This document shows, piece after piece, positions 8,801 to 25,107 of a stretch of DNA of 64,000 nucleotides. This DNA is from Anaerolineaceae bacterium (GTDB lineage Bacteria > Chloroflexota > Anaerolineae > Aggregatilineales > Phototrophicaceae). Numbering within the stretch: position 1 is the first letter of the stretch; each line of letters starts with the position of its first letter. Where the stretch lies: contig PABP01000038.1 of assembly GCA_002699585.1 (NCBI GenBank), forward strand, positions 558,001-622,000. Reading direction: 5' to 3'. Made by a program: the position numbers and the translations under genes. Under the pieces are notes generated by a model, which worked only from the letters and a program-made list of their open reading frames with translations, ran no database searches and was not told where the DNA came from.

Positions 8801-11800
8801 ACACGAAGTCAAAAGTCATATCGGCGTAGGCATCGTCATCCACGTTCTTCAGGATTGTGATGCTACCCATTTCCTGATAGTTACCGAAGTACATGATGGC
8901 GAAGTTGTTGATACCGGATGCATCCAGCGTCTTACATGGGACATTGTAGGTCCCATCAAGTGTTCCTGGTTCGCTGTTGATCCAGCCGGCTTGTTCGATT
9001 TCGCAAACCGTGTAAGTCTCGCTCGGCGACAGACCATTGAAGGTCACGCGAATGCCCAGGTCGTTCGGCGCACCTGCGTTTTCAGCCGAGGTAGTACCAG
9101 AATCTACCTGGTTGCCCTGGCTGTCATAGATAACAAAGTTCCAACCCGTCAGCGTGTTGCCCGTCGGACCACCACTGCTACCCGTATTGACTTCATTGTT
9201 GCTGCCATTCTGGTCCAGATCGTTGTACTTAATGACGCGAATTGCGACACTTGGTTCAGTGACTGTGACCGTATCAGAGCAGCTATTGTTGTCTTCGTTA
9301 CTCTCGACAATTTCGTCATCGGGATCAATCGTACATTCGCCATCAGTTGGGTTGACGAGGTCGCCAGTCGCGGTCGGTGCCGCCTGGACTGAAACATCGA
9401 AGGATCCGCCAGGCTGGAACGTCAGGCTACCTAATGCGACACAGGTCAATACGTTGGTATTGATCATACAATCGAAGCCGCCAATGAGGTTGTTAAGATT
9501 GGAGGTATCTGGGAAAGGATAATAGGTTGCGCCATTCGGCAGGTTATCCCTGAAAATGACCTCGCCATCCGCAAAGGTAGCCTCACCTAAACCGTCATTT
9601 GCCAGTGTAATCGTCCAGTTGAACGGAGCGCCCACAAAACCAGTGCCATTGGTGTCATTAACCTTGACAGCAGTCAGGTCGGGCTGCGGTTCTTCATAGT
9701 TGCCGAAGTACATGATGGCGAAGTTATTGATGCCGGATGCATCCAGCGACTTACAGGGTGCATTGTAGGTCCCATCAAGCGTACCCGGATCGCTGTTGTT
9801 CCAGCCGGATTGCTCAACTTCGCAGACCGTGTAGGTCTCGCTCGGCGACAGACCATCGAAGGTCACCCGGATGCCCAGATCGTTCGGCGCACCCGGGTTT
9901 TCAGCCGAGGTTGTACCTGAATCTACCTGGTTGCCTTGGCTATCGTAGATAACGAAGTCCCAACCCGTCAGCGTGTTACCCGTCGGGCCACCGCTGTTAC
10001 CTGTGTTGACTTCATTGTTGCTGCCATTCTGGTTCAGGTCATTGTACTTAATGACGCGGATGGCAACAGGCGGCTCGTAGTTGTTGTTAAACGTACAAAC
10101 CGCATCTTCGCCTGCTTCCAGCACAATCGTCAGACCATTGGCCAACGCCGTGTTGTTGTTGCCATTGCCACAGTCAATCATGTCCAGATCCCAATCACTC
10201 GGAACGGTTTCTGTCACTGTGTAGTTACCTGCGGGCAGGTCACTGACCACGTACGGTGCGCCGTTCTCGCTCAGCGAGAAGTTGGTCGACCCATTGAACA
10301 CGAAGTCAAAGTCCATGTCAGCAAAGCTGTTGTCATCCACGTTCTTCAGGATCGTGATGCTGCCTGTCGGCGGTGGCGGTGTATAGACGTTGTTGAAGGT
10401 ACAGACCGCATCTTCGCCTGCTTCCAGCACAACTGTCAGACCATTGGCCAACGCCGTGTTGTTGTTGCCGTTGCCACAGTCAATCGTGTCCAGATCCCAA
10501 TCTGCCGGGACTGTCTCCGTGACGGTGTAGTTACCTGCGGGTAGGTCACTGACCACAAACGGTGCACCATTCTCGCTCAGCGAGAAGTTGGTCGACCCAT
10601 TGAACACAAAGTCGAAAGTCATATCGGCGAAGCTGTTGTCATCTACGTTCTTCTGGATCGTGATGCTGCCTGTCGGCGGTGGCGGTGTATAGACGTTGTT
10701 GAAGGTACAGACCGCGTCTTCTCCGGCTTCCAGCACAACAGTCAGACCATTGGCCAATGCCGTGTTGTTGTTGCCATTGCCACAGTCAATCGTGTCCAGA
10801 TCCCAATCACTCGGAACGGTTTCTGTCACTGTGTAGTTACCTGCGGGCAGGTCACTGACGACAAACGGTGCACCATTCTCACTCAGCGAGAAGTTGGTCG
10901 ACCCATTGAACACGAAGTCAAAGTCCATGTCCGCAAAGCTGTTGTCATCCACATTCTTCAGGATCGTGATGCTGCCTGTTGGCTGGTAGTTGCCGAAGTA
11001 CCTGATCGCTATCGAGCCGGCATTCGACGTATTGATTGTCTCGCAAGGCCGTGATAGACCTGTCGCACCCGGATCGGAATTGATGCCTGGGTCCGTGTTG
11101 ATCCATCCCGCTTGCTCGACTTCACAGATCGTGTAGGTCGCATCTTTCACGAGGTCGGCAAAGGTCACACGCACACCAAGGTCATTGGTCGCGTTCTCAA
11201 CCGATGTCGTACCCGTGCCCAGCAACTGCCCCTGGTCGTCATACAGCTCGAAGGTCCAACCCGTCAGCGTCGCGCCTGTCGGTGGGCCGCTCGGACCAAG
11301 ATCGATTTCGTCAGTGGTCCCATCCTGATTCAAGTCGTTGTACTTGATGACCCGAATATCAACAAGCTCAGGCGGGGCTTCTTCTGGGCCGCAGAACTTG
11401 ATATTGGAAATGGCAGCGTTGTTCTGGCCGTTGGGCGTGAAGATGCCACTATTATCGAAGCTGCCACTGGTAGCTACAGGTGAATAAGTATCTGTATGGA
11501 CATCATTCGCCCCTTTAATCAGGACGTGGCTGATAGATTCTGTCGATGTCCATGTACCGCCAGTCTCATCACCCGTGATGACGACGCCACCATCATTGTT
11601 CCCCTCCAGAACATAGTTGCCACCCTCATAGTTGAACTTAGCAAGCTGCACTGTGTCAACCGGGCACTCCTCATTAGGATTGCCACCCCCATCATTGGGA
11701 TTTGCTTGCGTGTGTATTTGGGTGTTTGTACTTAAGACGACCGGATTGGTTGGGGTCTCCACAGAGATCTGATTGGTTTCTTCAGTTACTATATCCGTTT

Positions 11801-11957
11801 CGGAATTGATGAAGTTTGCGATAATCGCCTGGAAGATTGCTCTAACTTCCGGCGGTGAATCTGCAAATGCTTCTTCCGAAATGGGTATACAGGCTGTCGA
11901 TACCAACCCCACCAAGAGAAATAGCCAAATTGCTCGTTGTCGCAAAAATGTCAGCAT
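5886..11957 (-). CDS. giant modular secreted/surface protein with SpaA/SdrD-like repeats and PPTEA tail
   Basis: A 2023-residue protein, probably extracellular. Residues 1-32 form a signal peptide (hydrophobic AIWLFLLVGLVSTAC); the Cys is not in a canonical lipobox, so a lipoprotein is doubtful. After a unique region to about 195, modules follow in order: SdrD/Cna-B-like (IRVIKYNDLNQDG) at about 200-325; three SpaA-like repeats at 327-421, 430-523 and 532-626; a second SdrD-like module at 629-755; a CARDB-like module (PDLTAVKVNDTNG) to about 904; a third SdrD-like module at 905-1028; three more SpaA-like repeats to about 1327; two DUF11-like repeats to about 1555; another SpaA-like domain to about 1650; a unique C-terminal domain; and the pentapeptide tail from about 1900. 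No LPXTG motif or C-terminal membrane helix is visible, so anchoring is unclear. A role as adhesin or envelope stalk is inference. GAGAG precedes the ATG. Confidence 0.85.
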   Translation of the reverse strand: MLTFLRQRAIWLFLLVGLVSTACIPISEEAFADSPPEVRAIFQAIIANFINSETDIVTEETNQISVETPTNPVVLSTNTQIHTQANPNDGGGNPNEECPVDTVQLAKFNYEGGNYVLEGNNDGGVVITGDETGGTWTSTESISHVLIKGANDVHTDTYSPVATSGSFDNSGIFTPNGQNNAAISNIKFCGPEEAPPELVDIRVIKYNDLNQDGTTDEIDLGPSGPPTGATLTGWTFELYDDQGQLLGTGTTSVENATNDLGVRVTFADLVKDATYTICEVEQAGWINTDPGINSDPGATGLSRPCETINTSNAGSIAIRYFGNYQPTGSITILKNVDDNSFADMDFDFVFNGSTNFSLSENGAPFVVSDLPAGNYTVTETVPSDWDLDTIDCGNGNNNTALANGLTVVLEAGEDAVCTFNNVYTPPPPTGSITIQKNVDDNSFADMTFDFVFNGSTNFSLSENGAPFVVSDLPAGNYTVTETVPADWDLDTIDCGNGNNNTALANGLTVVLEAGEDAVCTFNNVYTPPPPTGSITILKNVDDNSFADMDFDFVFNGSTNFSLSENGAPYVVSDLPAGNYTVTETVPSDWDLDMIDCGNGNNNTALANGLTIVLEAGEDAVCTFNNNYEPPVAIRVIKYNDLNQNGSNNEVNTGNSGGPTGNTLTGWDFVIYDSQGNQVDSGTTSAENPGAPNDLGIRVTFDGLSPSETYTVCEVEQSGWNNSDPGTLDGTYNAPCKSLDASGINNFAIMYFGNYEEPQPDLTAVKVNDTNGTGFVGAPFNWTITLANDGLGEATFADGEVIFRDNLPNGATYYPFPDTSNLNNLIGGFDCMINTNVLTCVALGSLTFQPGGSFDVSVQAAPTATGDLVNPTDGECTIDPDDEIVESNEDNNSCSDTVTVTEPSVAIRVIKYNDLDQNGSNNEVNTGSSGGPTGNTLTGWNFVIYDSQGNQVDSGTTSAENAGAPNDLGIRVTFNGLSPSETYTVCEIEQAGWINSEPGTLDGTYNVPCKTLDASGINNFAIMYFGNYQEMGSITILKNVDDDAYADMTFDFVFDGSTNFSLSENGAPFVVSDLPAGNYTVTETVPAEWDLDTIDCGNGNNNTALANGLTIVLEAGEEAVCTFNNVYTPPPPVGSITILKNVDDDSYADMSFDFVFDGSTNFSLSENGAPFVVSDLPAGNYTVTETVPSDWDLDTIDCGNGNNNTALANGLTIVLEAGEEAVCTFNNVYTPPPPVGSITILKNVDDDSFADMDFDFVFNGSTNFSLSENGTPYVVSDLPAGTYNVTENVPPGWDLTSIDCGPNNNTGATNGLNIVLEAGEDAVCTFNNINLSSSIDVIKTASVSEVTAPGGNVTFTFRIENTGSDTVTINSLTDTVFGDLNGQGACSVPQVIGIGSDYQCTLDTVVNGSGGDVHYNVVTASGVDSTNDPVSGEDDATVNIVAPLVGEINVTKTPSVSEVTAPGELVTFTFKIDNIGTDTVTIDSLLDTVFGDLDGQGTCSVPQVISVAGSYECSLDVFIAGDAGDSHYNVVTASGTDTSNNAVSDNDDATVNIVAPPVGSIVLTKSVNWNGVPVDSNQSFQLCIDGDALSSPQCQSVGANGGTVTFSDLPLGEYTAYETDPGSDWTVSGGGSVTLDAPDQQKSVTITNTHDIFVQALTLEATCPAGTIIVTNPNGFVVNFQYANQSYSVGANATTQITAQPGETVTITFDGGSATATAKVSTDCGTVSQEPGLTCPANWTLIGESRATLGINHPNLVLEASVNFNLSDEYEDYEVSVQVASAVGHPENGCLIGGGNDGTKYPCDQGQNVESFNVLFDGSQVANIPDHGEDQWQSFGTVYNGTIGAGSHTVTYRHVGYGPTPESVTYKSIVCVLEGTPAQTQAAEEEAFQSLEVPLSGDVTETSPTEAPPTEAPPTEAPPTEAPPTEAPPTEAPPTEAPPTEAPPTEAPPTEAPPTEAPPTEAPPTEAPPTEAPPTEAPPTEAPPTEAPPTEAPPTEAPPTEAPPADEAPPTEAPPTEAPPAEEA
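5889..6258 (-). repeat. 15-bp minisatellite encoding the PPTEA tail
   Basis: About 20 uninterrupted 15-base units (GGCGGNGCYTCNGTT on the plus strand), plus degenerate end units with PPADEA and PPAEEA, encode the Pro/Thr/Glu/Ala C-terminal tail. The units differ almost only at synonymous third positions. A tract like this is prone to slippage, so copy number may vary between strains. Confidence 0.93.
7973..8868 (-). repeat. three tandem SpaA-like coding repeats (copies 4-6)
   Basis: Three roughly 300-base units (about 7973-8253, 8280-8551 and 8586-8868) each encode a domain that starts GSITILKNVDD, has FSLSENGxPxVVSDLPAG in the middle and ends VCTFNN. They are nearly identical to each other and to copies 1-3 at 10080-10978, so recent duplication or gene conversion is likely. 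Confidence 0.9.
10080..10978 (-). repeat. three tandem SpaA-like coding repeats (copies 1-3)
   Basis: Units at about 10080-10363, 10390-10669 and 10695-10978 encode the first three near-identical SpaA-like domains. They are joined by YTPPPPTGSI linkers, the same linker type as in copies 4-6. Confidence 0.9.
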
Positions 11958-12476: not shown

Positions 12477-15400
12477 ATGCGCAAATTGATCGTAGTCATG
12501 TGCATCCTGTTGTTGCTGTTGCCAGCAACCAATGCGCAAGACATCACCACCGTTGCCGGTGCGTCGACTTCTATTACACTATCAGCACCAGAAGATGCTG
12601 CTGAGCCACTCACCTTTATCGTAGATGCCCTGCCTATCAACGGGCTGCTGACAGGTGAAGCACCGAACTTGGTGTACCAGCCGAAGGCAGGTTTTGTCGG
12701 CACGGATACAGTGACCTATACCGTCATCGATGGCACAGGTATCGTCACCACTAGCACGCTGGTCATTCAAATCACTGAAGATGAGACAACTTCAGCCCCA
12801 GCGGCTGCTGTGGCTATTGAGCCACAGACGACCGTCGAGCTTGAGGCCAACAGCAATGTCGCTTTTACAATCGCCCTGGGCGAAGCCTTTGAGTTACTTG
12901 TCGAGCCAACGCATGGTACGCTCTCTGGTCAGGTTCCTGATATCATCTACACGCCAGATGAGGGCTTTAATGGTGAAGACAGCTTCTCCTACAGCGTGGT
13001 CATTGATGGCGTCGAGCAAACATACGAAGTTACCTTCGCTGTTGGCAACGTCAACGGGCTGGTGGCTGCCACACGGCCACCCAATAACTACACCGCATTG
13101 CCGGGTCTGTCATTGGCACTGACAGAATTGGTACGCCCAAGTAGCTTAACAGCCGTACGTGCAGAAGCAGCTTCCTTTGTTGAGAACAATCTCGTCAGCG
13201 TGGTTGTGCAGGCAAGTGACAGTGCCGATGCTGCTACATCAGCCATCACGGCTGCGGGTGGCGTGGTCGTTTCCACTGCTACAGGTTTCGTGGTAGCAGA
13301 AGTTCCAGTAAGTAGCCTGATGAGCCTGGGGACCCACCCCAGTATTGCGTATATACGTCTGCCCCAGCGCTTCACGACGATGGGCAATGTGGAAGTTGAT
13401 CGTCCTGCTTCAGGTTTGTCTACGTTGAGTATCCCCTTAGAGACTCAGTCGGGTACCGTCACATCCGAAGCAGTCACATATACGAATGCGAGTGCCTGGC
13501 ACACCGCCGGGTATACAGGTGATGGCGTCAAGATCGGCGTCATTGATTATGGCTTTGATGACACAGGCTCCTATGCGGCTGATCTAGGATGTTTGGTGGA
13601 AGTGAAGAATGCGAATAACACTACCTATACCACAACCGGATCCGACGATGGCATACCGGCGCTCGAAACCATTTGTGACATGGCCCCTGATGCAGAAGTT
13701 TATGCTCGCCATGTTGCAGATGAAAGCCAGTTCTATACAGCAATGGATAACCTGGCAGCCCTAAATGTGGACATCATTTACGCGGCACTCCAACCACTGG
13801 CAACCTTAACCTCCACGGACCCGCTTAATATGGGTGATGGTTCCAGCCCTATTGATGCCAAAGTCGATACCATTGTGGGTGTAAACGACATTCTGGTCGT
13901 CGTTCCATCCGGGGATAACCACGATTCTAACTATGAAGGGCCACTTGACCTTATTATGGCAGACATCAACGGCGATGGATCCGTCGTGGAGATGGTGCAT
14001 ACTTTCGATGGCGAGATCTCTGGTTGGGGTACGGATGTCTTTAATAAGCTACTTGAGCAAGACCCATTTGACTCCGAACTTGACATCACTTCCGGCAGCT
14101 TGACCTTTGTCCTTACATGGAAAGAAGGGATGACGACTCCCGTCGAGCTGGACTTAACACTTTACAAGTACAATACGACGTCCAGTGCATGGGAAGAATT
14201 GGTTTCATCAAAAGAGGATGCACCACCAACGAGAGAAATCCTGACAATTAGCTATAATCAGCTCCCGATCGGTCGGTATCGTCTGGCAATCGTCGCAGCT
14301 GGGAGCGGCAACCCAGAAGACTATGAAGATAATCAGTGGATCCAACTGACGGAACTCAGAAACAACATCGTCATCTTCCAGGATCGCTATAAATACAGCA
14401 GCATTATCGCTCCGGCGACTTCCCAGACCGCATTTACAGTGGGTGCATTCTATCAAGCCGACGCATCCACACGCACACTGGATACATTCAGTGCACACGG
14501 GCCAGCCAATACACAAGGCGGTGGCGACCCATTTGCGGCTGTAGGTGGCTACTTCCAACCGCAGATCGTCGCGCAAAATGGCACTGATGTTAGTTATGGT
14601 GGCGCCTACACGGGTGGGTTCAACGGAACACGGGCAGCCGCAGCCCATGCTGCGGGTGCCGCAGCCCTTGTCAAAGAATTGAATCCGAGCTATACGCGCA
14701 TAGATCTGGGGAACGATTTGCGGACACGCGCTCTCCTGAATTCTGGTGATCCTGGTGCAGCCGGCCCTGATACAGCTTATGGGTATGGCTTCCTCTATCT
14801 GGGTAATCCAACAGATGATGCTAGCTGCGATGTGGATACCATCGGTATTTACCGCGATAGCGATTTCAGTTGGTATTTACGTAATAGCAACACCTCTGGC
14901 TTTGCCCAATATGTTTTTAACTATGGGTTGCCATCGGATCAATCGATTACTGGAGATTGGGATGGCGACGGTGATGATACCGTTGGCATTTATCGCAACG
15001 GTACATTCTTTTTGAAGAACACAAATACTACGGGTGTTGGCGATGTTACCTTTGCATTCGGAGCTCCCACCGACATACCTATCGCCGGTGACTGGAACGG
15101 TGACGGAATTGATACAGTAGGCTTGTATCGTCCAAGCAGCGGATCCTGGTTCCTCATTGATGCCAATGAGTCACGCGCTCCTGATTATGCGTTCACCTAT
15201 GGCCTCGTGAATGAAACACCTGTCACAGGCGACTGGAATGGGGACGGTAATGACACGATCGGCATCTTCCGTGCGAGTGATAGCACATGGTATTTGCGCA
15301 ACTCGAATTCAGCAGGATTTGCTGAATCACTCATCGTATTTGGTAATCCCGCTACGGACAATGCGATCACAGGTGACTGGAACGGCGATTGCGTTGATAC

Positions 15401-15533
15401 GATTGGGCTGTATCGTCGAGCAGAAGCGAACTGGTTCTTGAAAAATACGAATTCAACGGGCATTGCGGATGTTACCTTTACCTATGGTCTTCCAAATGAA
15501 ACACCTGTTTCAGGTGATTGGGACAACAATTAG
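12477..15533 (+). CDS. subtilisin-like (S8 fold) secreted pseudoprotease with GDWNGDG repeats
   Basis: A 1018-residue secreted protein: signal peptide 1-21 (LIVVMCILLLLLPATNAQ); two Ig/cadherin-like segments to about 190 (VYQPKAGFVGTDTVTYTV, then IYTPDEGFNGEDSFSY); an S8 peptidase-like domain at about 335-770; then five or six roughly 46-residue repeats with GDWNGDGxDTxGxxR, probably Ca-binding FG-GAP-like blades. The catalytic Asp is present (D357 in VIDYGFD). Other active-site positions are lost compared with the next gene: the NHG histidine motif is deleted (DDGIPALE), the oxyanion Asn is Asp480 (PSGD), and the serine is Arg719 (GTRAAAAHAAG in place of GTSAAAPHAAG). The reading frame is intact over 3 kb, so it is a maintained inactive paralogue rather than decay. 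A binding or scaffold role, or an inhibitor/decoy of its partner, is inference. Confidence 0.85.
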   Translation: MRKLIVVMCILLLLLPATNAQDITTVAGASTSITLSAPEDAAEPLTFIVDALPINGLLTGEAPNLVYQPKAGFVGTDTVTYTVIDGTGIVTTSTLVIQITEDETTSAPAAAVAIEPQTTVELEANSNVAFTIALGEAFELLVEPTHGTLSGQVPDIIYTPDEGFNGEDSFSYSVVIDGVEQTYEVTFAVGNVNGLVAATRPPNNYTALPGLSLALTELVRPSSLTAVRAEAASFVENNLVSVVVQASDSADAATSAITAAGGVVVSTATGFVVAEVPVSSLMSLGTHPSIAYIRLPQRFTTMGNVEVDRPASGLSTLSIPLETQSGTVTSEAVTYTNASAWHTAGYTGDGVKIGVIDYGFDDTGSYAADLGCLVEVKNANNTTYTTTGSDDGIPALETICDMAPDAEVYARHVADESQFYTAMDNLAALNVDIIYAALQPLATLTSTDPLNMGDGSSPIDAKVDTIVGVNDILVVVPSGDNHDSNYEGPLDLIMADINGDGSVVEMVHTFDGEISGWGTDVFNKLLEQDPFDSELDITSGSLTFVLTWKEGMTTPVELDLTLYKYNTTSSAWEELVSSKEDAPPTREILTISYNQLPIGRYRLAIVAAGSGNPEDYEDNQWIQLTELRNNIVIFQDRYKYSSIIAPATSQTAFTVGAFYQADASTRTLDTFSAHGPANTQGGGDPFAAVGGYFQPQIVAQNGTDVSYGGAYTGGFNGTRAAAAHAAGAAALVKELNPSYTRIDLGNDLRTRALLNSGDPGAAGPDTAYGYGFLYLGNPTDDASCDVDTIGIYRDSDFSWYLRNSNTSGFAQYVFNYGLPSDQSITGDWDGDGDDTVGIYRNGTFFLKNTNTTGVGDVTFAFGAPTDIPIAGDWNGDGIDTVGLYRPSSGSWFLIDANESRAPDYAFTYGLVNETPVTGDWNGDGNDTIGIFRASDSTWYLRNSNSAGFAESLIVFGNPATDNAITGDWNGDCVDTIGLYRRAEANWFLKNTNSTGIADVTFTYGLPNETPVSGDWDNN

Positions 15534-15604
15534 GTAAAACAGAGCTTACTTCACATGGCTTGCATGCCAGATATGCAAGTCATTGGAGAATCCATAACAA
15601 CGTC

Positions 15605-15632
15605 AAAAGGGACAGCTTAGGCTGTCTCTTTT
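15605..15632 (+). terminator. intrinsic terminator after the pseudoprotease gene
   Basis: A 12-bp stem with one G-T wobble (AAAAGGGACAGC / GCTGTCTCTTTT) and a 4-base loop ends in a T-run. It isolates the two tandem paralogues, so the second needs its own promoter. Confidence 0.8.
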
Positions 15633-15646
15633 GGCTTAGCAGGCAA

Positions 15647-15674
15647 TTGAGACTCCGCAAAATTTCACTATAAT
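15647..15674 (+). promoter_or_regulatory. sigma70-type promoter of the active subtilase gene
   Basis: -35 TTGAGA (15647-15652), a 16-base spacer and a perfect -10 TATAAT (15669-15674). Transcription would start near 15681, about 26 bases before the ATG. The AGGAGC ribosome binding site fits between. Confidence 0.75.
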
Positions 15675-15706
15675 GTGAACACTCGCTAAAATCATTAGGA
15701 GCAAAC

Positions 15707-18703
15707 ATGCTACAGCGCAGTCGGCTTCACCTCGTTTTACTCTTCCTATTTCTGATGCTTGTTGTGCCGGCACACGGCCAAAGTGCTACCCTGACAACAC
15801 CCGCCAATGTGGCATTAGATCTCCATCTGACTGCACCTGACAGCGCTGTTGAGCCCCTGACGTTTGTTATCGATGCTCTGCCTACGAACGGGCGTCTCGT
15901 CGGGCAAGCACCACAGCTCATGTATATTCCTTACAATGGCTATATTGGCCCTGACTCTGTGACGTACAGTGTCATTGACAACAATGGCACCGTAGCAACA
16001 ACAACCATAGATATTCTCATTGTAGCGGATGAAAGTCCAGATAACCCGCCTCTTGACCCTGAAGACAGCGTTGACGTGTCGCCAGTGTTCCAGACATATA
16101 TCGACACTGCGCTTAGCCTGCCGCTCGCATCGGGCACAGACTATCTTATTCTAGACGAACCGTCGTATGGTACAGTTTCCGGCCAAGTTCCTGATCTAGT
16201 TTATGTCCCCGATGAAGGTTTTGAAGGCACAGATATACTCATGTACGCAGTCACGCGCGACGGTACCGAGCATGAAGTCACTGTGTATATACAGGTAGGC
16301 GAGCCGATTAAAGTCACCACATCCAATTTTGTTGCAAGCCCTACCCTTGACCTACCCGGTGTTTCGCACACCTTGACCCTACTTATCCAGGGGCAGGCCC
16401 GACCGGAACTTCTCGTCAATCCAAGCACAACCCTCGAACACGCGCTGAAAAACCTCCACGGTGATCGTGTTGAAATCACCGTCCGTACAGCGGGCGATCC
16501 AGATATGGTGCGTGCCCGCATAGAAAATCTGGGGGGCACAGTCACCCATGTGCTTGAAACTTATCTACTGGGCGATATACCGCTCAGCAGTGTGGCAACC
16601 CTGGGCGCAGACCCACTCGTTACCCATGTGGATGTTCCAGTTCCCATCGTACCTGCACAAGAGGGGCAATCCGAAGATGTGATCCCCCAGGTGGGTAATT
16701 ACAACAGCCAGGGACTAACATTTACCAATGCGAACGCCTGGCACGCCAGTCAAATCCGGGGCCAGGGGGTCCGTATTGGCGTGACAGATAAGGGATTCGA
16801 CAATCTGAACGCCACTGAAACATCCTGTGTTGAAGAAATTATTCTCAGTCCAGGTGTTCCTTACGCAGATACGGGCTCTAGCGACAATCACGGGTCGGCT
16901 GTGCTGGAAATCGTCTGTGATATGGCCCCTTATGCAGAAGTATTTGCTTATCACGTTGTTGATAGCAACGACTTCGCCAATGCCGTGAGTTACTTTCGCA
17001 ACACGATTGGTGTTGACGTCATTACGGCATCGTTAGCAGGTTCCTTCTATCCTGGCGATGGCACAGGTGTTTTTTCACAAATTGTCGATCAGGCCACAAA
17101 AGGGTCGGATGTTGTGTTTACCGTTGCCGCGGGTAACTACAATATTGGCCACTATGAGGGCTGGTTCACACCGATGCCACTCCTTACCGATGACGGCACA
17201 ATTACAGCCCACGACTTCAACACGAGTTTGGTTCAAGATGCTTTTAATATCTTGGGCGCTGGGACAGTTGCTGCGTATGCTACCATCTCAAAACAGCTTA
17301 TTTGGGACGATTGGAATCCGTCTGTAACAACCGACTTTGACTTACAGCTCTATCGAGAAGTCGCCCCTAACGATTGGGTCCTCGTCGCTGATTCCAACGT
17401 AAATAACATAAACGACGATGTGCCGCGTGACACGCTCGAATACACGGTACCGAGCGGACAAGGTGGTACTTATGCATTGGTCATCCAGCAAGTCGTCTCT
17501 AGCGGGCGGCCTATCTGGTTGCAACTGACACAACTCGGCCCGACGTCACTCTCAACAGAATTTGAGAATAATCTGAGCAGCGTCAGCGAGCCGGGTGCAG
17601 CCCGTACAGCATTCAGTGTAGGTGCAGCGTTGGCTTCAAATGGGAGCATCGCTTACTACAGCGGCAATGGACCTGCCAACGGTATCGGCGCAAATGGACC
17701 CAGCAATCCCTATGGTACGCCACCCGGTTACTTCCATCCGCTAATAACAGGCCCGACTAACGTTACGACCAGCATATATAGTGCCTTTGGTGGTACATCG
17801 GCGGCGGCACCGCATGCCGCTGGGGCGGTAGCACTGGTGCGCCAAGCATATCCTTACTACACACGCACCGATACACAGAATTTCCTGCTCAATCAAACGC
17901 AATTTTCTACAATGGGCAGCGACCCTGGTGCAACTGGCGCAGACACGGTTTATGGTTATGGGTACTTGTGGTTAGGTACCGCACCCAGCGAGCCAACATG
18001 TGAGCCAGACACGATTGCGATCTATCGTGCGAGCGACTTTAGTTGGTACCAGCGTTATTCGAACACAGCAGGTTTTGCCAACAACACATTTAGCTATGGG
18101 TTGCCTTCTGACCGAGCTGTAGTCGGTGATTGGAACGGTGATGGCATCGATACGGTTGGTATCTTCCGTAACGCCGTCTTTTATCTAAAGAACAGTAATG
18201 CAAGTGGTGTTGCCGACATCACATTTGGCTTTGGTGCAGCAACTGATATTCCAATTGCTGGAGACTGGAATGGCGATGGCATTGATACGATTGGATTATA
18301 TCGACCCTCTACCGCAACATGGTACCTGAGGAACTCTAATAGTTCCGGCCCAGCAGACGTTGCTTTCGCATATGGCTTAACCAACGAAACGCCAGTAACA
18401 GGGGACTGGGATGGGGATGGCATCGATACCATAGGCATCTTCAGAGCCAGCGACAACTCGTGGTACCTAAGGAACAGTAACTCAGCGGGTTATGCGAACC
18501 AACTTGCAACTTTTGGCCTGCCCGCAACCGATACACCGATCACAGGGGACTGGAACGGTGACTGTGTCGATACGATTGGATTGTATCGGCGTGCATCTGC
18601 CACATGGTTCTTGAAGAATCGTAATAGCAACGGCGTCGCAGACATCGCCTTCACTTATGGCCTCGCAAATGAGACACCCATCACAGGCAAGTGGGTCAAC
18701 TAG
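15707..18703 (+). CDS. secreted subtilisin-like serine protease (S8) with GDWNGDG repeats
   Basis: A 998-residue paralogue of the preceding gene with the same layout: signal peptide 1-24 (ending PAHGQ); two Ig/cadherin-like segments (LMYIPYNGYIGPDSVTYSVI, LVYVPDEGFEGTDILMY); S8 domain at about 340-750; then GDWNGDGIDTxGxYR repeats to the end. The catalytic set is complete: D361 (VTDKGFD), H395 (DNHGSAV), N477 (AAGN) and S698 (GTSAAAPHAAG). It should be an exported endopeptidase acting outside the cell, possibly for protein scavenging or for processing surface proteins such as its neighbours. The C-terminal repeats probably bind Ca or mediate surface attachment; this is inference. It has its own promoter and terminator and so is expressed independently of its inactive twin. 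Confidence 0.9.
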   Translation: MLQRSRLHLVLLFLFLMLVVPAHGQSATLTTPANVALDLHLTAPDSAVEPLTFVIDALPTNGRLVGQAPQLMYIPYNGYIGPDSVTYSVIDNNGTVATTTIDILIVADESPDNPPLDPEDSVDVSPVFQTYIDTALSLPLASGTDYLILDEPSYGTVSGQVPDLVYVPDEGFEGTDILMYAVTRDGTEHEVTVYIQVGEPIKVTTSNFVASPTLDLPGVSHTLTLLIQGQARPELLVNPSTTLEHALKNLHGDRVEITVRTAGDPDMVRARIENLGGTVTHVLETYLLGDIPLSSVATLGADPLVTHVDVPVPIVPAQEGQSEDVIPQVGNYNSQGLTFTNANAWHASQIRGQGVRIGVTDKGFDNLNATETSCVEEIILSPGVPYADTGSSDNHGSAVLEIVCDMAPYAEVFAYHVVDSNDFANAVSYFRNTIGVDVITASLAGSFYPGDGTGVFSQIVDQATKGSDVVFTVAAGNYNIGHYEGWFTPMPLLTDDGTITAHDFNTSLVQDAFNILGAGTVAAYATISKQLIWDDWNPSVTTDFDLQLYREVAPNDWVLVADSNVNNINDDVPRDTLEYTVPSGQGGTYALVIQQVVSSGRPIWLQLTQLGPTSLSTEFENNLSSVSEPGAARTAFSVGAALASNGSIAYYSGNGPANGIGANGPSNPYGTPPGYFHPLITGPTNVTTSIYSAFGGTSAAAPHAAGAVALVRQAYPYYTRTDTQNFLLNQTQFSTMGSDPGATGADTVYGYGYLWLGTAPSEPTCEPDTIAIYRASDFSWYQRYSNTAGFANNTFSYGLPSDRAVVGDWNGDGIDTVGIFRNAVFYLKNSNASGVADITFGFGAATDIPIAGDWNGDGIDTIGLYRPSTATWYLRNSNSSGPADVAFAYGLTNETPVTGDWDGDGIDTIGIFRASDNSWYLRNSNSAGYANQLATFGLPATDTPITGDWNGDCVDTIGLYRRASATWFLKNRNSNGVADIAFTYGLANETPITGKWVN

Positions 18704-18734: not shown

Positions 18735-18766
18735 CAGCCAGCCTCTAAAAGAAGCTGGCTGTTTTT
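18735..18766 (+). terminator. intrinsic terminator after the subtilase gene
   Basis: An 8-bp stem CAGCCAGC / GCTGGCTG with an 11-base loop is followed by TTTTT. It lies between the convergent subtilase and Dyp peroxidase genes. Confidence 0.85.
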
Positions 18767-18780
18767 GTCGGACAATTTGC

Positions 18781-20328
18781 CTAACCTGCCAGGAAGCGCA
18801 AAGCGGTCAGGCTGGGCATGAAGAAATAACCGCCACCCAGGACATCGACGAAGCGCGGCAGAGGCTGCGTGCGCACACGGACCGTATCCGTCGGCACATG
18901 CATATAGCTAGCAGGCTGTTCTGGATCGCCATTATCGCCAATGATCGGGTCCTTGCTCTGATATAGCGTATTGAAATGCGGATTGTTGACCCAATTGGAC
19001 TGGATGAACTCGAACTGGCGCGGGATGCTGGCATTCACGCAGATGAAGTGCAGGCCGCGCTCAGCTCCATCATCTTCCAATGACAGCAATTCATCCAATT
19101 GTGTCAGATCACCTGAATCCAACATTTCCAGGCCGAACAAGACATCCCCATAAATGCGGCCACGTCGCAAAATGCGATGTTTGGCAGTGGTCGCGGCAGC
19201 TTCTTCTGCCCCTACGGGGTGGAATGAATCACGGGGGTTGGTGCGGCGCAGATGCGACCCAAACGGGCAGTGCAACCCATCCTGGTCTGACTCCGCAAAG
19301 GTGAAGTCGTTCTGATGCTTGAGCGCCGCTAAATCCGCCACCAACGGGTCACCATTGGGACCACGTCCGACCATCTTCGATGCCAACCAAATCATACGCT
19401 CACTGGTAACGGCCCCGTCAATGCGCTCGACCTCGTCTTGGATGAAATGCCAAAAGGCGGGGACGTTCTGCGACATTTTGCGATAAACCAGATAGGTACC
19501 GTTTGCACCAAAGTCTTTAAGATGACCAGATCGGGACAGCGGGTGTGCCTGACGCGGGTTTTCATAGAGTGGCAGGATATTTTCGGGGTCATCTTCCCAG
19601 GCGACAACAGGCACAGACGGGAACAGGCCAAATGCGTTTAAATAGCCCAGGATGAATTCCCCCGTAGCAATGCCATCTTTGATGGGTTTGCCATCGCCAT
19701 CATACAGGTTGATGCCCTGCAAACGGGGCTGTGAAATACCGTCTTTGAAGCCAAAATGCTCTTTATCATCAGGCCGCCGATAGCCCCATTCGGTATGTAC
19801 AACCTCAACACCCTGTAAGCCTGAAATAACCTCATCGACGAACTTCTGGATTTCAGCTTCATTCGCAGAGGGATCATCAGCAGACATCCCCGCATGTAGC
19901 AACAAGAGGATATGGTATGGCTCGGACGTCGGGCTGCCAATTTGCCAGCTATCCGGCGAGCTGGTGCCGATGTCACCCAGGGCCAATGAACGCGGACTGG
20001 CCCCCATCCCCTGCTGGAACTCCGGTGGGAAAGTGCGCAAGCTGGCATCGGACAGGCCCAGAGCGGCCAATCCCTCAAATGACAAAGCGATGTTCAAAAT
20101 GCGCTCCGGGTAGATTTTCGGTGGGCGATCTTCACCAGGAGCGCAGGGTTGATCGTTCTTACGCCAGCTTTCCGCAGTGAGCACCTGGGGAACGACCTGC
20201 TTGAGCCAGTCCTTCGCCTGGGCTGTATCCATGACGCGCAAAAACAAATAAGCCGCCTGATACGTATGACCATATCCACTGGTGATGAAGCCCTGAATAT
20301 CGCGTTTTGCTTCGTTTAAGCTGGTCAT
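18781..20328 (-). CDS. Dyp-type (dye-decolorising) heme peroxidase family protein
   Basis: A 515-residue Dyp-type peroxidase family member. The diagnostic GXXDG motif is present as GFKDGISQP near residue 193, with the distal Asp at D196; further on, CPFGSHLRRTNPRD matches the conserved CPxxAHIRKxNPR block. Such enzymes use hydrogen peroxide to oxidise dyes, phenolics or other substrates with heme. I see no signal peptide, so it may be cytoplasmic or exported with a partner. GAGGA precedes the ATG. It follows the duplicated-domain protein by 10 bases, so they are one operon. Across the intergenic region a GMC-type oxidoreductase, whose family often makes peroxide, is transcribed the other way. 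Confidence 0.88.
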   Translation of the reverse strand: MTSLNEAKRDIQGFITSGYGHTYQAAYLFLRVMDTAQAKDWLKQVVPQVLTAESWRKNDQPCAPGEDRPPKIYPERILNIALSFEGLAALGLSDASLRTFPPEFQQGMGASPRSLALGDIGTSSPDSWQIGSPTSEPYHILLLLHAGMSADDPSANEAEIQKFVDEVISGLQGVEVVHTEWGYRRPDDKEHFGFKDGISQPRLQGINLYDGDGKPIKDGIATGEFILGYLNAFGLFPSVPVVAWEDDPENILPLYENPRQAHPLSRSGHLKDFGANGTYLVYRKMSQNVPAFWHFIQDEVERIDGAVTSERMIWLASKMVGRGPNGDPLVADLAALKHQNDFTFAESDQDGLHCPFGSHLRRTNPRDSFHPVGAEEAAATTAKHRILRRGRIYGDVLFGLEMLDSGDLTQLDELLSLEDDGAERGLHFICVNASIPRQFEFIQSNWVNNPHFNTLYQSKDPIIGDNGDPEQPASYMHVPTDTVRVRTQPLPRFVDVLGGGYFFMPSLTALRFLAG

Positions 20329-20338
20329 GATCGCGTCC

Positions 20339-21574
20339 TCATAATTCCTTCAGCCATTTGACGGCTGATTTTTCGTTGATGTTATCGTGGTAGGCATAGT
20401 ACAGGCGGCGGGCCTGCTCGATGCCAACGACGGTCGTATGCGGGTAAGCGGAATAATGAAAGCTAGCCGGGGTATTGTGGCACAAAATACCTTCGACAAA
20501 GGCTTCCGGGTCCAAAGTGGCCCCCTCACGCCAACCGACAGTGCCATCCCATAATGTATTTAAGCCACTGGGCAAACGATTCACAAAATCCGCAAAGTAG
20601 GCCGATGCGCTGCCATCATAGTCACTGATGAACAGCATGCGTTTGCCACCGTCGATCATCTGCCAGCGGGCGAAATGAATCGTCGGAATGATGCGGTTGC
20701 GCGTAATAAACGGAATCTTGATGAACGCGCCAAAGCTGGCGATGACCGCATGTTGGCGTCGCGCCGAATCAGCTCCGTTGACCGTGACAATCGTGATCTG
20801 GTTCTGGACCTGCTTGCGCTGCTGGAAGGCGGGCAGGGTATCGACCTGTTGACAGGGGCCAACTTCGTCCCCGGGCGAAAAGGGCACACAGGGACCGCTC
20901 TTATCTAAGGATGCATCCGTATATTGGCGATCCAGCTTGACCTGTTTGAGCGAGACAATCGTTGCAGGTATCAGCGCAAGGCCAAAGCGTAATAAGCCAA
21001 TAATCTGGGGAATGACCGACAGCGTAATAAAGATGTAGCGAATGAAGGTGCCGATGGCGCGCAGCCCGCGTCGGAGCCAGCTTATCGGGGCAAATTGGCG
21101 CGGAAGCTGGCGCAGCACATCCTCATATTGCGAGAGCGGCACGTCAAATTTAGCCGAGAGTTCGTCGCGCAGGGCCAGGTATTTCTGAATGTTCTCGACT
21201 GTTTCGTAGCGATAGGCCTTTAAGAACAGGTCCGTCTGAATGCTGTAGGCGTTCATGAACTGCACAAAGTTGTTCGCCCCGGTGAAGCCTTCACAGCAGC
21301 CCCAGATGGCCTCCATGTTGGATGTATTGTCGCGCAGATCACGCAGGTATCTGTCGTGGTCGCCATCGTAGACAGCGGTAAACATCAGCCGCAAGCGACC
21401 TTTACCAGCATCGATATGCGACAGCAGCACAAAGCGTGCAAAATGGGTCAGGTTGGATTTGGCGAAATCAATCTGGACGCCATCCGGCTCATTAATGTGG
21501 CTGACAGCAGCGCGGCAAGCCTCTTCCTGGCCTGCGTGGATTGGGGCCATTACGGTGATGACTTGTGAAACCAT
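20339..21574 (-). CDS. uncharacterised protein with two copies of a Dyp/ferredoxin-like domain
   Basis: Not a family I can name. The protein (411 residues from ATG 21572-21574) has an internal duplication: THFARFVLLSH ... RLMFTAVYDGDHDRYLRDL in the first half matches IHFARWQMID ... RMLFISDYDGSASAYFADF in the second. Each resembles an alpha/beta ferredoxin-like barrel of the Dyp/Dabb kind, without the GXXDG peroxidase motif. Between them, about residues 180-215, is a strongly hydrophobic stretch (YIFITLSVIPQIIGLLRFG) that is probably a membrane helix or hairpin. GGGGGAA sits just before the paired ATGs, so I rejected the upstream GTG. It is the first gene of a two-gene operon with the Dyp peroxidase and may be its membrane partner; that is inference. 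Confidence 0.75.
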   Translation of the reverse strand: MVSQVITVMAPIHAGQEEACRAAVSHINEPDGVQIDFAKSNLTHFARFVLLSHIDAGKGRLRLMFTAVYDGDHDRYLRDLRDNTSNMEAIWGCCEGFTGANNFVQFMNAYSIQTDLFLKAYRYETVENIQKYLALRDELSAKFDVPLSQYEDVLRQLPRQFAPISWLRRGLRAIGTFIRYIFITLSVIPQIIGLLRFGLALIPATIVSLKQVKLDRQYTDASLDKSGPCVPFSPGDEVGPCQQVDTLPAFQQRKQVQNQITIVTVNGADSARRQHAVIASFGAFIKIPFITRNRIIPTIHFARWQMIDGGKRMLFISDYDGSASAYFADFVNRLPSGLNTLWDGTVGWREGATLDPEAFVEGILCHNTPASFHYSAYPHTTVVGIEQARRLYYAYHDNINEKSAVKWLKEL

Positions 21575-21974
21575 CATTTCCCCCACTTAAACTATTTGAA
21601 CAACAATTCGGGCGATTGTTTTTTGTTTACAAACGCGGGATGCCAACGTGATATGCCAACGTTTGGGCGGTGATGTGTGCTACGTTGTGCCCTTTTATTA
21701 TGAGCGCGTTTTGCCCGATCAATCGAAAAAAACATGAAAAAATTCATCTGAGGCTGTTGTCAGGCAGCAGGCGATGGCGCATGATGATAAAGAGTTCCTG
21801 ACATCAGTCGCTGGCATTACAACCTCAATCAGTAGTAGACTATAGTCCAGAATTACACATTAGACAACGGACCCCATAACAGCGATTGACCCAATCGAAC
21901 CCGTAACAGCAGCCGCTGTATTCAAGTAAATTTATTTTTAGTAATTCATCTTGTTGGCATAGTAGGTGGGGGGT
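21575..21974. other. 400-base divergent intergenic region
   Basis: It separates the leftward Dyp operon from the rightward GMC gene and should contain both promoters. A TATAGT hexamer at about 21840 could be a rightward -10, but its -35 is poor. No coding ORF or RNA gene is apparent. Both flanking genes have a G-rich ribosome binding site (GGGGGA and AGGTGGGGGG). Confidence 0.5.
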
Positions 21975-24900
21975 ATGGACATGGCTGAACAGTCATCTTC
22001 AACAACAAATATACCGGCAACGACGGTACCAACAACGACGGTACACGAAAATCGCCTGATGGTATTCCTGAACATAATTGCCGGACTGCGCATGTTGGTT
22101 GCAATTGCATTGATTCTCGCACCCTACATCTTGAGGGAGCTAGATTTCTTCATTGCCCCACCCTTCTTCTTCACCAATACGGTTGCCGGGGTGATCCTGG
22201 TCGCCATGACAGCCTGGTTCGCGGCGGGTGATGTGCGCCGATTCCGCAATCTGGCCATCATCACCGACCTGGCGCTGGTACTAGGTGCAGTTTCCTACCT
22301 GGCAATGTACCTCAGCCCGGTCGGGGCAGGCTTCCAAACAGAATTGCTTTTCGAATTTGGCACCTATGCCATCCTGGCGCTGATTGTTGCCTTCTTATTA
22401 TGGCGAGCTGTGCCACAAGATCCTTCCTGGACAGACTGGATTTCCGAGAAAGCGCTCACAGGTTGGGAGCGCGTCGGGCAAGTGGTGTACGGGGCCTTCG
22501 GCATCATTTCATTTATTGCCGTTGCTGGCAGCCTGATTGGAGCCTTCATCACGCCCAACCCGATGGCCTCGCTGTGGACGCAACCCGTATTTGTTGCTGG
22601 CTCTGCTGTGAAAATCGGCACACTGGGCATGCTTTCGCTAGCCGCTGCCCTTAACATTCGCAAGAACCTCAAGCTCATGACGCTGGTCATCGTCGGCCAT
22701 GCAGGTTCCTGGGTGGTGATTACCATCCTGGCGATATTGGGCTATTGGCGCTTTGGGGATTACACGCTGACTATCGGCGATATGAGCTTTGGCGTCTCGG
22801 AAATGATGTTCGGCGCATGGCTGCTGGATGTCGTGATTATTGCCGTATTCGGCTTCATCCAGAATCGCGCCAACGCCTCCGTGGTGGACCATGTGAATTT
22901 CTTCGCACCGTTCCACTTCCGTGTGCTAGAAGCGCTGATCGAAACGCTGATCGAAGGCAAAGACACAGAGGGTAAATCATCTGAGCGGGTTGCCCCCTAC
23001 CAGAGTGCGCTTAACACGGATGTGTATCTATCATCTTTCCATTCCAATCGGCTTTTCCTGGCCAAGCTGGCACTCATGGGCACAGAATATCTGCCGCTAC
23101 TGTGGTTCAAGCCGCCCATGACATGGCTGCGCCCATCGGCCCGCCATGATTTCATTGATCGCCGCTTTAAGCACGAAGTCTTAGAGCCGCCGCTTGGTTA
23201 TCGCATCATGGATCGCATCTTCCGGGGTGGGAACGCTCTCATCCTACGGACACGCGGGCCAGTCAAACCAGCGACCCTGGACGCCACTATGAACTTCACC
23301 GACCTGCTGGAAGGCATCATGCGATTTGACATGCAGATGACTTACCTGGGTTACTATGGTGATGACCGCACCTGGGAAAAAGACGAACAGGGCAACGGCA
23401 TCGGCTATGTGCCCTTCTCCAAACGCCCGAAGAACTTCAAAGTTGTTCCGCGCCGACCACATCCACCGCTGGAAGTCACCCTGCCGGAAGACATCGCCCG
23501 ACATGGGATGGATGTCATTCATGATGCTGATGTGGTCATCATCGGTAGCGGGGCCGCCGGGGCCATCATGGCCGAGCAGATGCTAAAACGCGGTCGCAAT
23601 GTGCTGATGCTGGAACGTGGGTTGTATTCGCACCCGGATACGTTCAACGAAAACGAAATCGACATGGTCAGCCGCCTGTACAGCGACGGTGCCCTGCAAA
23701 TTTCGCAGTCGCTGCGCTTTACGATTTTGCAGGGCAGCGCGGTTGGTGGCACGACGGTTGTCAATAACGCAGTTTGCTTCGACACACCGGAGCATGTGGT
23801 CGATACCTGGAATGCACGTAATGACACCCCTGTGATCGACAAAGAAAAATACTACGAATCCCAGCGCGTCGTGCGAGAGCGTATGAGCATCGGCCCGATC
23901 AAAGCCGGGACGCGCACACCATTGGACGACCTGCTCAATCATGGTGATACCAAAATCAACGAGGGTGTGAAGCGCTATTTCGAGAATCATCCTGAGCTAG
24001 GTGAGTACGATTACAACGTGGTCGAGGCCAACATCACCGACTGCCTGGGCTGCGGTTACTGCAACATCGGCTGTAAATATGGCCGTAAAATTTCCATGCT
24101 GGATGAAGTGCTGCCCAAAGCCCAAGCCGACTACGGCGCGGATCGCTTCCGCATTTTGTCAGAAGCCGAGGTTGTGCACTTAGGGACGAACAACGGCAAG
24201 GCCAACGAGATTGTGGTCAATATTCGTGGCAAACGTAAGCTAGTCATCAAAGACCCCAAGACGGTCGTCGTTAGCGCCGGAACCGTCGCTTCTAGCTGGC
24301 TGCTGATGCGCAGCGGCATTGGCAAGAATCTGCCTGTCGGCCAGGGGTTATGCTTCAACATGGGCAGCCCATTGTACGGCTGGTTCGGTGAGCCGATTAA
24401 CGCCTATGAAGGCTTGCAGATCGCCCACTACCTCGACATCAAAGGCAAAGACGGCTTCGTCTACGAAACGTGGTTCAATCCGCCGCTCGCGCAAGCACTG
24501 ACCATGCCCGGTTGGCTGGATACGCACTACCAGAACATGCAGCGCTATAACGAAATGGTTGCGGTAGGCGTGTTGGTCGGCACGGAATCCAACGCTTATA
24601 TTGACCGTGCCCTGCTGATCAATGGGCCGGATGTGGTCTACAAGCCCTCCCCGCGTGATCTGGAACGGCTGCTGGAAGCCTTCAAGATACTGGGCAGCGT
24701 CCTGTTTGAGGCTGGTGCCAAGGAAGTTTTCGCTTCGACACGCAAATATCACAGCTACACGCCAACCAATGGCAAAGCCTACGCGCAGATGGTTGTACCC
24801 AATGACCTCAATCACCTAGAAGCGCTGGTCCGCAGTGATGATGACCTGCTGCTAGGCACAGGGCATCCGCAGGGAGGTAATGCCATCGGTACGCGGCCAG

Positions 24901-25058
24901 ATGGACCGGGCGCGAGCGTAGTCGATGAGCGCTTCAAAGTGTTCGGCTATGACAACCTGTACGTATGCGACGCCAGCGTGCATCCAACCGCGACGACCGT
25001 GAATCCACAGCTTACCGTGATGACACTGGCACATTATGCTTCCCAGTTCATTGAGTAG
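21975..25058 (+). CDS. membrane-fused GMC-type FAD oxidoreductase
   Basis: A 1027-residue fusion. Residues about 25-300 carry roughly eight hydrophobic helices (for example LNIIAGLRMLVAIALILAPY and MLSLAAALNI) with no export signal. The C-terminal part, from about 515, is a GMC-type flavoprotein: FAD motif VVIIGSGAAGA near 524-529, GSAVGGTTVVNNAV, and the C-terminal VNPQLTVMTLAHYASQ. Near residue 690 a cysteine-rich CLGCGYCNIGC could hold a cofactor; similar clusters occur in some GMC/cholesterol-oxidase-like proteins. It probably oxidises an alcohol or sugar at the membrane, passing electrons to quinone or oxygen; the substrate is unknown. I chose ATG 21975 over the upstream GTG because AGGTGGGGGG is its ribosome binding site. 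The GH94-like gene follows after 49 bases. Confidence 0.8.
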   Translation: MDMAEQSSSTTNIPATTVPTTTVHENRLMVFLNIIAGLRMLVAIALILAPYILRELDFFIAPPFFFTNTVAGVILVAMTAWFAAGDVRRFRNLAIITDLALVLGAVSYLAMYLSPVGAGFQTELLFEFGTYAILALIVAFLLWRAVPQDPSWTDWISEKALTGWERVGQVVYGAFGIISFIAVAGSLIGAFITPNPMASLWTQPVFVAGSAVKIGTLGMLSLAAALNIRKNLKLMTLVIVGHAGSWVVITILAILGYWRFGDYTLTIGDMSFGVSEMMFGAWLLDVVIIAVFGFIQNRANASVVDHVNFFAPFHFRVLEALIETLIEGKDTEGKSSERVAPYQSALNTDVYLSSFHSNRLFLAKLALMGTEYLPLLWFKPPMTWLRPSARHDFIDRRFKHEVLEPPLGYRIMDRIFRGGNALILRTRGPVKPATLDATMNFTDLLEGIMRFDMQMTYLGYYGDDRTWEKDEQGNGIGYVPFSKRPKNFKVVPRRPHPPLEVTLPEDIARHGMDVIHDADVVIIGSGAAGAIMAEQMLKRGRNVLMLERGLYSHPDTFNENEIDMVSRLYSDGALQISQSLRFTILQGSAVGGTTVVNNAVCFDTPEHVVDTWNARNDTPVIDKEKYYESQRVVRERMSIGPIKAGTRTPLDDLLNHGDTKINEGVKRYFENHPELGEYDYNVVEANITDCLGCGYCNIGCKYGRKISMLDEVLPKAQADYGADRFRILSEAEVVHLGTNNGKANEIVVNIRGKRKLVIKDPKTVVVSAGTVASSWLLMRSGIGKNLPVGQGLCFNMGSPLYGWFGEPINAYEGLQIAHYLDIKGKDGFVYETWFNPPLAQALTMPGWLDTHYQNMQRYNEMVAVGVLVGTESNAYIDRALLINGPDVVYKPSPRDLERLLEAFKILGSVLFEAGAKEVFASTRKYHSYTPTNGKAYAQMVVPNDLNHLEALVRSDDDLLLGTGHPQGGNAIGTRPDGPGASVVDERFKVFGYDNLYVCDASVHPTATTVNPQLTVMTLAHYASQFIE

Positions 25059-25107
25059 GCTTTGCGGTCCGTTGAGACGCGCAAACGATTGTTAGCAAAG
25101 GTTTTCC

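Follow-up and report, generated by a model that had tools for sequence, protein, structure and literature searches.

A maintained, predicted S8 pseudoprotease beside its active-type paralogue in an Anaerolineaceae bacterium

Why does a bacterium carry, immediately upstream of an apparently intact subtilase gene, a full-length copy from which most of the catalytic residues have gone? Such a copy could be on its way to becoming a pseudogene, or it could do a job that requires no cutting, either together with its active relative or alone. The window, that is, the whole stretch of 64,000 nucleotides that was analysed, contains the two genes in the same orientation, the upstream one being called C7up and the downstream one C7dn.

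Layout and active site of the tandem pair

The genes and their domains are as follows.

12477–15533, + strand: C7up, predicted pseudoprotease gene, 1018 aa; signal peptide (by eye), Ig-like domains, prodomain, triad-less S8 fold, about five repeats
12522–13043, + strand: two Big_9/cadherin-like Ig domains of C7up, residues 16–189 approximately (Pfam; limits of the second domain from predicted strands)
13098–14804, + strand: prodomain and S8 domain of C7up, residues 208–776, the Asn and Ser positions being separated by a beta-rich insertion (Pfam, alignment, model)
14805–15530, + strand: C-terminal domain of C7up, about five repeats of about 48 aa (alignment; the module is present in other open frames of the genome)
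15707–18703, + strand: C7dn, active-type paralogue, 998 aa, with D361, H395, N477 and S698 (open reading frame and alignment)
16352–17977, + strand: prodomain and S8 domain of C7dn, residues 216–757 (alignment, model)

As the preliminary description had it, these are tandem S8 paralogues, one with an intact triad and the other degenerate. Both reading frames lie at these coordinates and contain no internal stop, and their products are 46% identical in a pairwise alignment (44% in a four-way alignment). The layout is common to both: a signal peptide (recognized by eye), Big_9 Ig-like domains, a prodomain, an S8 domain with a large insertion, and about five C-terminal repeats. Big_9 and Peptidase_S8 score above the Pfam cut-off in both proteins. 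The Peptidase_S8 profile (PF00082, cut-off 21.8 bits) gives 48.1 bits for C7up and 67.7 bits for C7dn, which places both in the subtilase fold, and PF17963 matches two stretches of C7up (1.4e-13; best 16–97); an NCBIfam scan returned nothing above cut-off. The C-terminal repeats (14805–15530 and 17978–18700), of about 48 residues each and of the form GDWxGDGxDTIGIYR...WYLRNSN, have no Pfam match of their own. The same module occurs in nine further open frames of the genome, some of them scanned in part, one with a glucoamylase-like domain and another with a beta-lactamase match below cut-off; in a congener (G001) it adjoins an M23 peptidase.

In C7dn, D361, H395, N477 and S698 stand in canonical motifs, and the protein is predicted to be an S8 peptidase. 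The corresponding positions of C7up read as follows.

13545–13547, + strand: D357, the sole triad residue retained (alignment, codons)
13647–13649, + strand: D391, at the catalytic His position in a shortened loop (four-way alignment; the placement is alignment-dependent)
13785–13787, + strand: A437, for the S1-strand Ser, S442 in C7dn (alignment, codons)
13914–13916, + strand: D480, for the oxyanion-hole Asn (alignment, codons)
14631–14633, + strand: R719 (CGG), for the nucleophilic Ser (alignment, codons)
14643–14645, + strand: A723, for the Pro four residues past the Ser, P702 in C7dn (alignment, codons)

With D357, D391, D480 and R719 at the four catalytic positions, C7up is predicted to be a non-peptidase homologue, outside the S8 peptidases proper. 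All the residue numbers reported earlier (D357, Asp480 and Arg719 in C7up, D361, H395, N477 and S698 in C7dn) proved correct. The earlier reading of a deleted HG motif has to be revised. The pairwise alignment of C7up and C7dn gaps out the residues NH; in the four-way alignment there is a one-residue gap, H395 stands opposite D391 and the Gly is retained (G392). Since the Gly is kept, and since another paralogue, described below, has an ungapped His-to-Glu change (E400), a replaced His in a shortened loop is the preferable interpretation.

The preliminary description also credited each gene with transcription signals of its own, and three candidate elements bear on this.

15602–15635, + strand: terminator-like hairpin between C7up and C7dn, 15 pairs, −24.6 kcal/mol, z −7.7
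15647–15674, + strand: promoter-like TTGAGA-16-TATAAT ahead of C7dn, 11/12 match
18735–18766 (approximate), + strand: terminator-like hairpin with a T run past C7dn (by eye; absent from the terminator scan list)

Of 1500 simulated intergenic stretches, 5 contained a site as good as that at 15647–15674, and two exist in the whole window. The intergenic hairpin and this site would thus fit separate transcription of C7up and C7dn, a claim for which the z of −7.7 and the 11/12 match speak. Against it stand the omission of the 15602–15635 hairpin from the terminator scan, its T run lying within the stem, and the promoter-like sites of the region, which as a class show no excess (6 found against 9.1 expected by chance).

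Origin and maintenance of the dead copies

A search of the source genome (6.7 Mb in 42 contigs, 96% complete) recovered four full-length members of the family at three loci: C7up, C7dn and one each on contigs C41 and C5. The C41 paralogue has an intact triad. The C5 paralogue is, like C7up, dead: it carries D363, E400, D482 and R701, and shares with C7up the changes Asn to Asp, Ser to Arg, S1-strand Ser to Ala and Pro to Ala. The nucleophile codon is TCG (Ser) in both active copies and CGG (Arg) in both dead ones, a common two-step change. Two of the six PF00082 matches in the genome are therefore dead copies; the two S8 proteins outside the four-member family have Asp, His, Asn and Ser (by eye), one of them with GSS for GTS. 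Active and dead genes are paired at one of the three loci only. No active copy lies in the 16 kb surrounding the C5 dead copy, which is found downstream, on the same strand, of ABC transporter genes of iron or cobalamin type, and the C41 active copy lies near two ABC exporter-like genes (names by eye in both cases); by eye, no neighbour gene was seen to be common to all four. The presence of a second dead paralogue in the same genome suggests dead proteases with a non-cutting job of their own.

To gauge how unusual the two dead copies are, a profile was built from the S8 domains of the four paralogues. It was run at order level against 154 genomes (E ≤1e-30), at class level against 396 (1e-50) and at phylum level against 400 (1e-45). 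These sets overlap, and the thresholds, together with the three scored candidates per genome in the class and phylum searches, favour closer relatives. After removal of 11 duplicate rows and of low-scoring stretches, the set held 104 domains including the four query domains: 96 have Asp, His, Asn and Ser (DHNS), two are cut before the Ser, and six deviate, namely C7up (DDDR) and the C5 copy (DEDR), L096 (DHDA), L101 (DHDG), L124 (DHSS) and L150 (DHDS). The His is lost solely in the two dead copies of the source genome. Active homologues from the same family, order and class (L054, L053 and L080, for example) have the same prodomain and S8 domain with insertion; unlike the dead copies, they belong to the 96 of 104 domains with all four residues intact. 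Two motif scans of named genomes complete the survey. The first, for orthologues, matched 49 stretches, none of which was confirmed; the second hit at least 80 loci that yielded 76 domain rows, 73 of them DHNS, two cut before the Ser and one without the Asp stretch. No Ser-less domain was seen among these rows (at least 76, two cut before the Ser), in scans whose patterns contain HG and PH/AH and so are biased against pseudoproteases. No orthologue of C7up was found among the surveyed genomes of the order, class and phylum or the named genomes.

A pattern emerges from the Ser-less domains of the survey. All four have Asp at the oxyanion Asn position and Ala at the Pro position, as against 1 of the 98 Ser-intact domains with Asp for Asn and 4 of 98 without the Pro. 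The four probably represent three lineages, and the survey suggests a candidate rule by which loss of the nucleophile goes with Asn to Asp and with Pro to Ala four residues on. Engineered subtiligase/peptiligase (S221C, P225A) likewise combines a nucleophile change with Pro to Ala four residues on, a substitution that, according to PMC7921005, shortens the helix, shifts residue 221 and makes room. The dead copies differ from it in being natural, in having Arg instead of Cys and in that catalysis is not expected of them. Of the 98 Ser-intact domains, 96 have the S1-strand Ser, for which both dead copies have Ala. Three further domains from the same class have Asp for the oxyanion Asn: L096 (Ser to Ala) and L150 (Ser retained), which are sisters in the tree, and L101 (Ser to Gly), which lies elsewhere; they may be independent steps toward pseudoproteases.

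Conservation of the pair was examined in one congener, G001, a single contig about 95% complete. A search of that genome found no full-length family member, so that the active/inactive pair, whose conservation had been raised as a question, is absent from the one relative compared. The idea that relatives might hold an upstream copy with an intact triad found no case, no orthologue of C7up having been found. The single S8 protein seen in G001 has intact motifs. The block of GH94-type gene, GMC oxidoreductase, the gene at 20339–21586 and DyP peroxidase has the same order and orientation in both genomes (62–68% identity); past the 3' end of the DyP gene, G001 has other genes (a regulator and transporter-like genes, by eye) without a match to either S8 protein, and the window's PfkB gene finds its best match in G001 about 0.9 Mb away. 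The S8 pair therefore sits at a break in gene order. In the window, 18781–28110 encodes the DyP-type peroxidase, a 415-aa protein without Pfam match, a 1030-aa GMC oxidoreductase and a GH94-type protein; 5886–11957 (− strand) encodes a 2023-aa protein with SpaA-type prealbumin-like repeats and a long PPTEA-repeat tail. Nearby S8 genes alone are not unusual, since two nearby family genes with intact triads occur in each of the genomes G103, G146 and G467 (L138, L139 and L140).

Two trees were made to place the loss, one of 32 rows with the active-site columns and one of 49 of the 104 rows without them, the structure alignments comprising 61 and 50 rows. The four paralogues form one clade (support 100/99 and 100/100, respectively), with L053 and L054 nearest to them in the 49-row tree. 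Within it C7up groups with the C5 copy, both with (95/92) and without (95/87) the active-site columns, and C7dn branches off first among the four, with weak support (92/71 and 86/38). In the best tree the tandem genes are thus not each other's closest relatives. C7up is a paralogue of its neighbour, as described earlier; the picture of a degenerate twin of that neighbour fares less well, given the grouping with C5, although topologies that pair C7up instead with C7dn (p-AU 0.095) or C41 (p-AU 0.344) were not rejected. Duplication in situ followed by loss is accordingly disfavoured by the trees, with its topology still unrejected. A single loss of catalysis, predating the split between the C7 and C5 dead copies, is probable, and the trees favour such a single origin short of proof. 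The His codons would fit one loss followed by divergence, from CAC/CAT to GAT (Asp) and then to GAA (Glu) in C5.

Is the frame of C7up kept by selection, as the preliminary description had concluded from its openness? When random substitution was simulated from C7dn, 0.1 substitutions per site introduced 6.9 stops on average and left the frame open in a single run of 200; at 0.2 or more, no run of 200 kept it open. Over the prodomain-S8 region the dead pair has pS 0.714, a formal (saturated) dS of 2.27 and dN 0.71, and the active pair dN 0.62 with a likewise saturated dS of 3.15; synonymous sites are saturated in every pair. The sequences thus bear the conclusion out: since synonymous sites are saturated while the frames remain open, the dead copies are judged to be maintained, not decaying. 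The dN/dS check proposed earlier gives a formal value of about 0.3 (0.31 between the dead copies), not near 1, which is imprecise owing to saturation and which, had the two copies lost catalysis independently, would cover periods both before and after the loss. C7up hence combines what defines a pseudoprotease, a kept fold, lost catalytic residues and a frame maintained by selection, the dN/dS being a formal value only on a saturated dS.

The distribution of changes points the same way. Conserved columns were defined as those with at least 85% conservation in 94 homologues, leaving out the four paralogues and L096, L101, L116, L124, L125 and L150. Of the 63 such columns, 20 are changed in C7up, 16 in C5, 11 in C7dn and 10 in C41. 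In six of them both dead copies have lost the conserved residue and both active ones retain it (H395, A398, S442, N477, S698 and P702 in C7dn numbers), and all six fall among the 15 columns of the active-site motifs (p 7.4e-5, with motifs assigned after the list had been seen). Slow decay, in which C7up lost its function locally and recently and is of no use, could draw on the 20 changed columns and on a branch of 1.36 in the 49-row tree, about 1.4–1.9 times longer than the other three (C5 0.72, active copies 0.77 and 0.97), and as the owner of the longest branch C7up may have undergone some partial relaxation. Decay is nevertheless very unlikely, in view of an open frame of 1018 codons, saturated dS with dN of about 0.7, and a second dead copy with the same changes, the common losses being confined to the active site. 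A recent local mutation is ruled out by that second dead paralogue, the saturated dS and the focused pattern of loss.

Likeness to the Csp proteins

Without its signal peptide, C7up gave a model of pLDDT 72.8, in which most of the S8 domain is predicted with confidence and the C-terminal repeats are predicted poorly. Foldseek placed first the CspC-CspA complex of C. difficile (9pr8, 2.2e-16) and CspB of C. perfringens (4i0w, 1.0e-15). VIA-align ranked Vpr first (Z 34.7), and a subtilisin such as 5ox2_A reached Z 33.0 (rmsd 2.5 over 253 aligned residues); CspB came in row 43 (Z 32.2, rmsd 4.3 over 374 aligned residues), over a range running from after the prodomain into the low-confidence C-terminus. 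The prodomain-S8 model of C7dn (pLDDT 89.7) behaved similarly: Csp chains make up the best nine Foldseek rows, in loose superpositions (TMq 0.49–0.58, rmsd 6.7–11.1), and in VIA-align pro-subtilisins lead, with no Csp among the best 50 rows. Sequence matches in the PDB brought up Tk-SP and subtilisins, and no Csp among those listed (the best 60 of 192, all 51, and the best 60 of 203). The Csp prodomain profile PF18425 scores 18.6 bits on C7up (E 0.0018) and 13.1 bits on C7dn, both below its cut-off of 25.

CspB and CspC consist of a prodomain, a subtilase domain and a jelly-roll insertion of about 130 residues (PMC6636752, PMC3567191). In C. difficile, CspA and CspC are each described as lacking two catalytic residues, CspC keeping the Asp (PMC6636752, PMC12880746), and CspC and CspA as forming a stable heterodimer upstream of active CspB (PMC12880746). 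CspC resembles C7up in that the Asp is retained and the His and Ser are lost (D105, T170, G485; PMC6636752), and the distance from His to Ser, 315 in CspC and 311 in CspB according to the same source, falls within the 298–328 found here; the beta-rich insertion, close in length to that of Csp, lies between Asn and Ser positions that are 216–239 residues apart. More generally, the Csp proteins of Clostridioides difficile combine a prodomain with a protease domain of S8 fold that carries a large insertion, and active and dead members occur in one genome. There are differences too. The replacements in CspA/CspC are not those of the dead copies (an acid, Asp and Arg), the present proteins add Ig and repeat domains, and their genome has no Spo0A match. 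The dead state of C7up and of the C5 copy would have arisen separately from that of Csp.

The Foldseek comparison accordingly points to a Csp-like architecture, as a likeness and not as membership. C7up was not filed as a Csp, because PF18425 scores below cut-off, because the likeness of the insertion comes from whole-model comparison only, and because the genome lacks a Spo0A match. A Spo0A_C search, with this one marker, found no match in the source genome and a positive in Bacillus subtilis alone of 14 control genomes; the germination role of Csp therefore does not carry over. Pseudo-orthocaspases are also bacterial pseudoproteases, with three sequences reported in Chloroflexi (PMC6426788), and differ in being caspase-type His-Cys peptidases, not subtilases. 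Within a literature search of partial coverage, I found no bacterial S8 pseudoprotease other than Csp.

Possible roles of C7up

The favoured hypothesis, to which I give about an even chance, is that C7up is a long-kept secreted S8 pseudoprotease that most likely partners the active paralogues as a regulator or scaffold, much as CspC and CspA do with CspB. It is ranked first by analogy with the CspC:CspA heterodimer upstream of CspB, ahead of a stand-alone surface protein. In such a scheme catalysis would have been abolished by Ser to Arg, oxyanion Asn to Asp, His to an acid, S1-strand Ser to Ala and Pro to Ala, with the fold kept. The three carboxylates and one Arg in the old active site could form an internal salt-bridge plug, and without self-processing the groove would remain covered by the prodomain. 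A non-catalytic binding module would then be made up of the outer surface, the insertion, the Ig domains and the repeat domain, and the presumably secreted protein would be an extracellular partner of the active paralogues in the CspC/CspA-CspB manner. Against the partner reading, the two dead and two active copies occupy three loci, only one of which pairs them.

This last point leads to the possibility that C7up is a maintained pseudoprotease working alone, a secreted adhesin or structural surface protein in which the S8 fold is a scaffold between Ig and repeat domains. I regard this as a serious though tentative alternative. The terminator- and promoter-like signals between C7up and C7dn would suit it, as would the C5 dead copy, which stands behind ABC transporter-like genes (by eye) with no active copy in the surrounding 16 kb, and the recurrence of the C-terminal repeats in nine further open frames, the glucoamylase-like one included. 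It leaves unaccounted for that the whole layout, prodomain and S8 fold included, is kept in the paralogues, and it would make the tandem gene order a coincidence.

A bolder version of the partner hypothesis, improbable as it stands, is that the family is a second, independently evolved Csp-like set, in a genome without a Spo0A match, whose dead members would be secreted and, as sensors or as partners in assembly, would switch the active protease on or off.

Acting as a decoy is a known role of pseudoenzymes. The preliminary description had listed it for C7up, which would then occupy the active protease's substrates or inhibitors while leaving them uncut, and the full-length fold and kept prodomain agree with this. 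Both dead copies, however, have Ala in place of the S1-strand Ser that 96 of the 98 Ser-intact domains possess, and the uncleaved prodomain would block the groove. Because a non-cutting protein cannot release its prodomain, the groove is probably closed, which, together with loss of the S1-strand Ser, makes a substrate decoy less plausible and favours contacts elsewhere on the protein surface. The decoy role is thus disfavoured, and I hold it to be quite unlikely. Least likely of all is a new activity, in which the three carboxylates and Arg would bind a metal or a small ligand or catalyse something else: the acidic set is common to both dead copies (D/D/D/R and D/E/D/R), but the literature searched offers no precedent and an Arg-carboxylate plug is the simpler reading.

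What is new here is a four-member paralogue family with two pseudoproteases that appear old and maintained, the second dead copy being that on C5. A case separate from Csp, in which a single genome has two active and two dead members, would suggest an architecture prone to conversion into a non-cutting regulator or scaffold, and the adjoining active and dead genes form a compact system for testing the role of a pseudoprotease.
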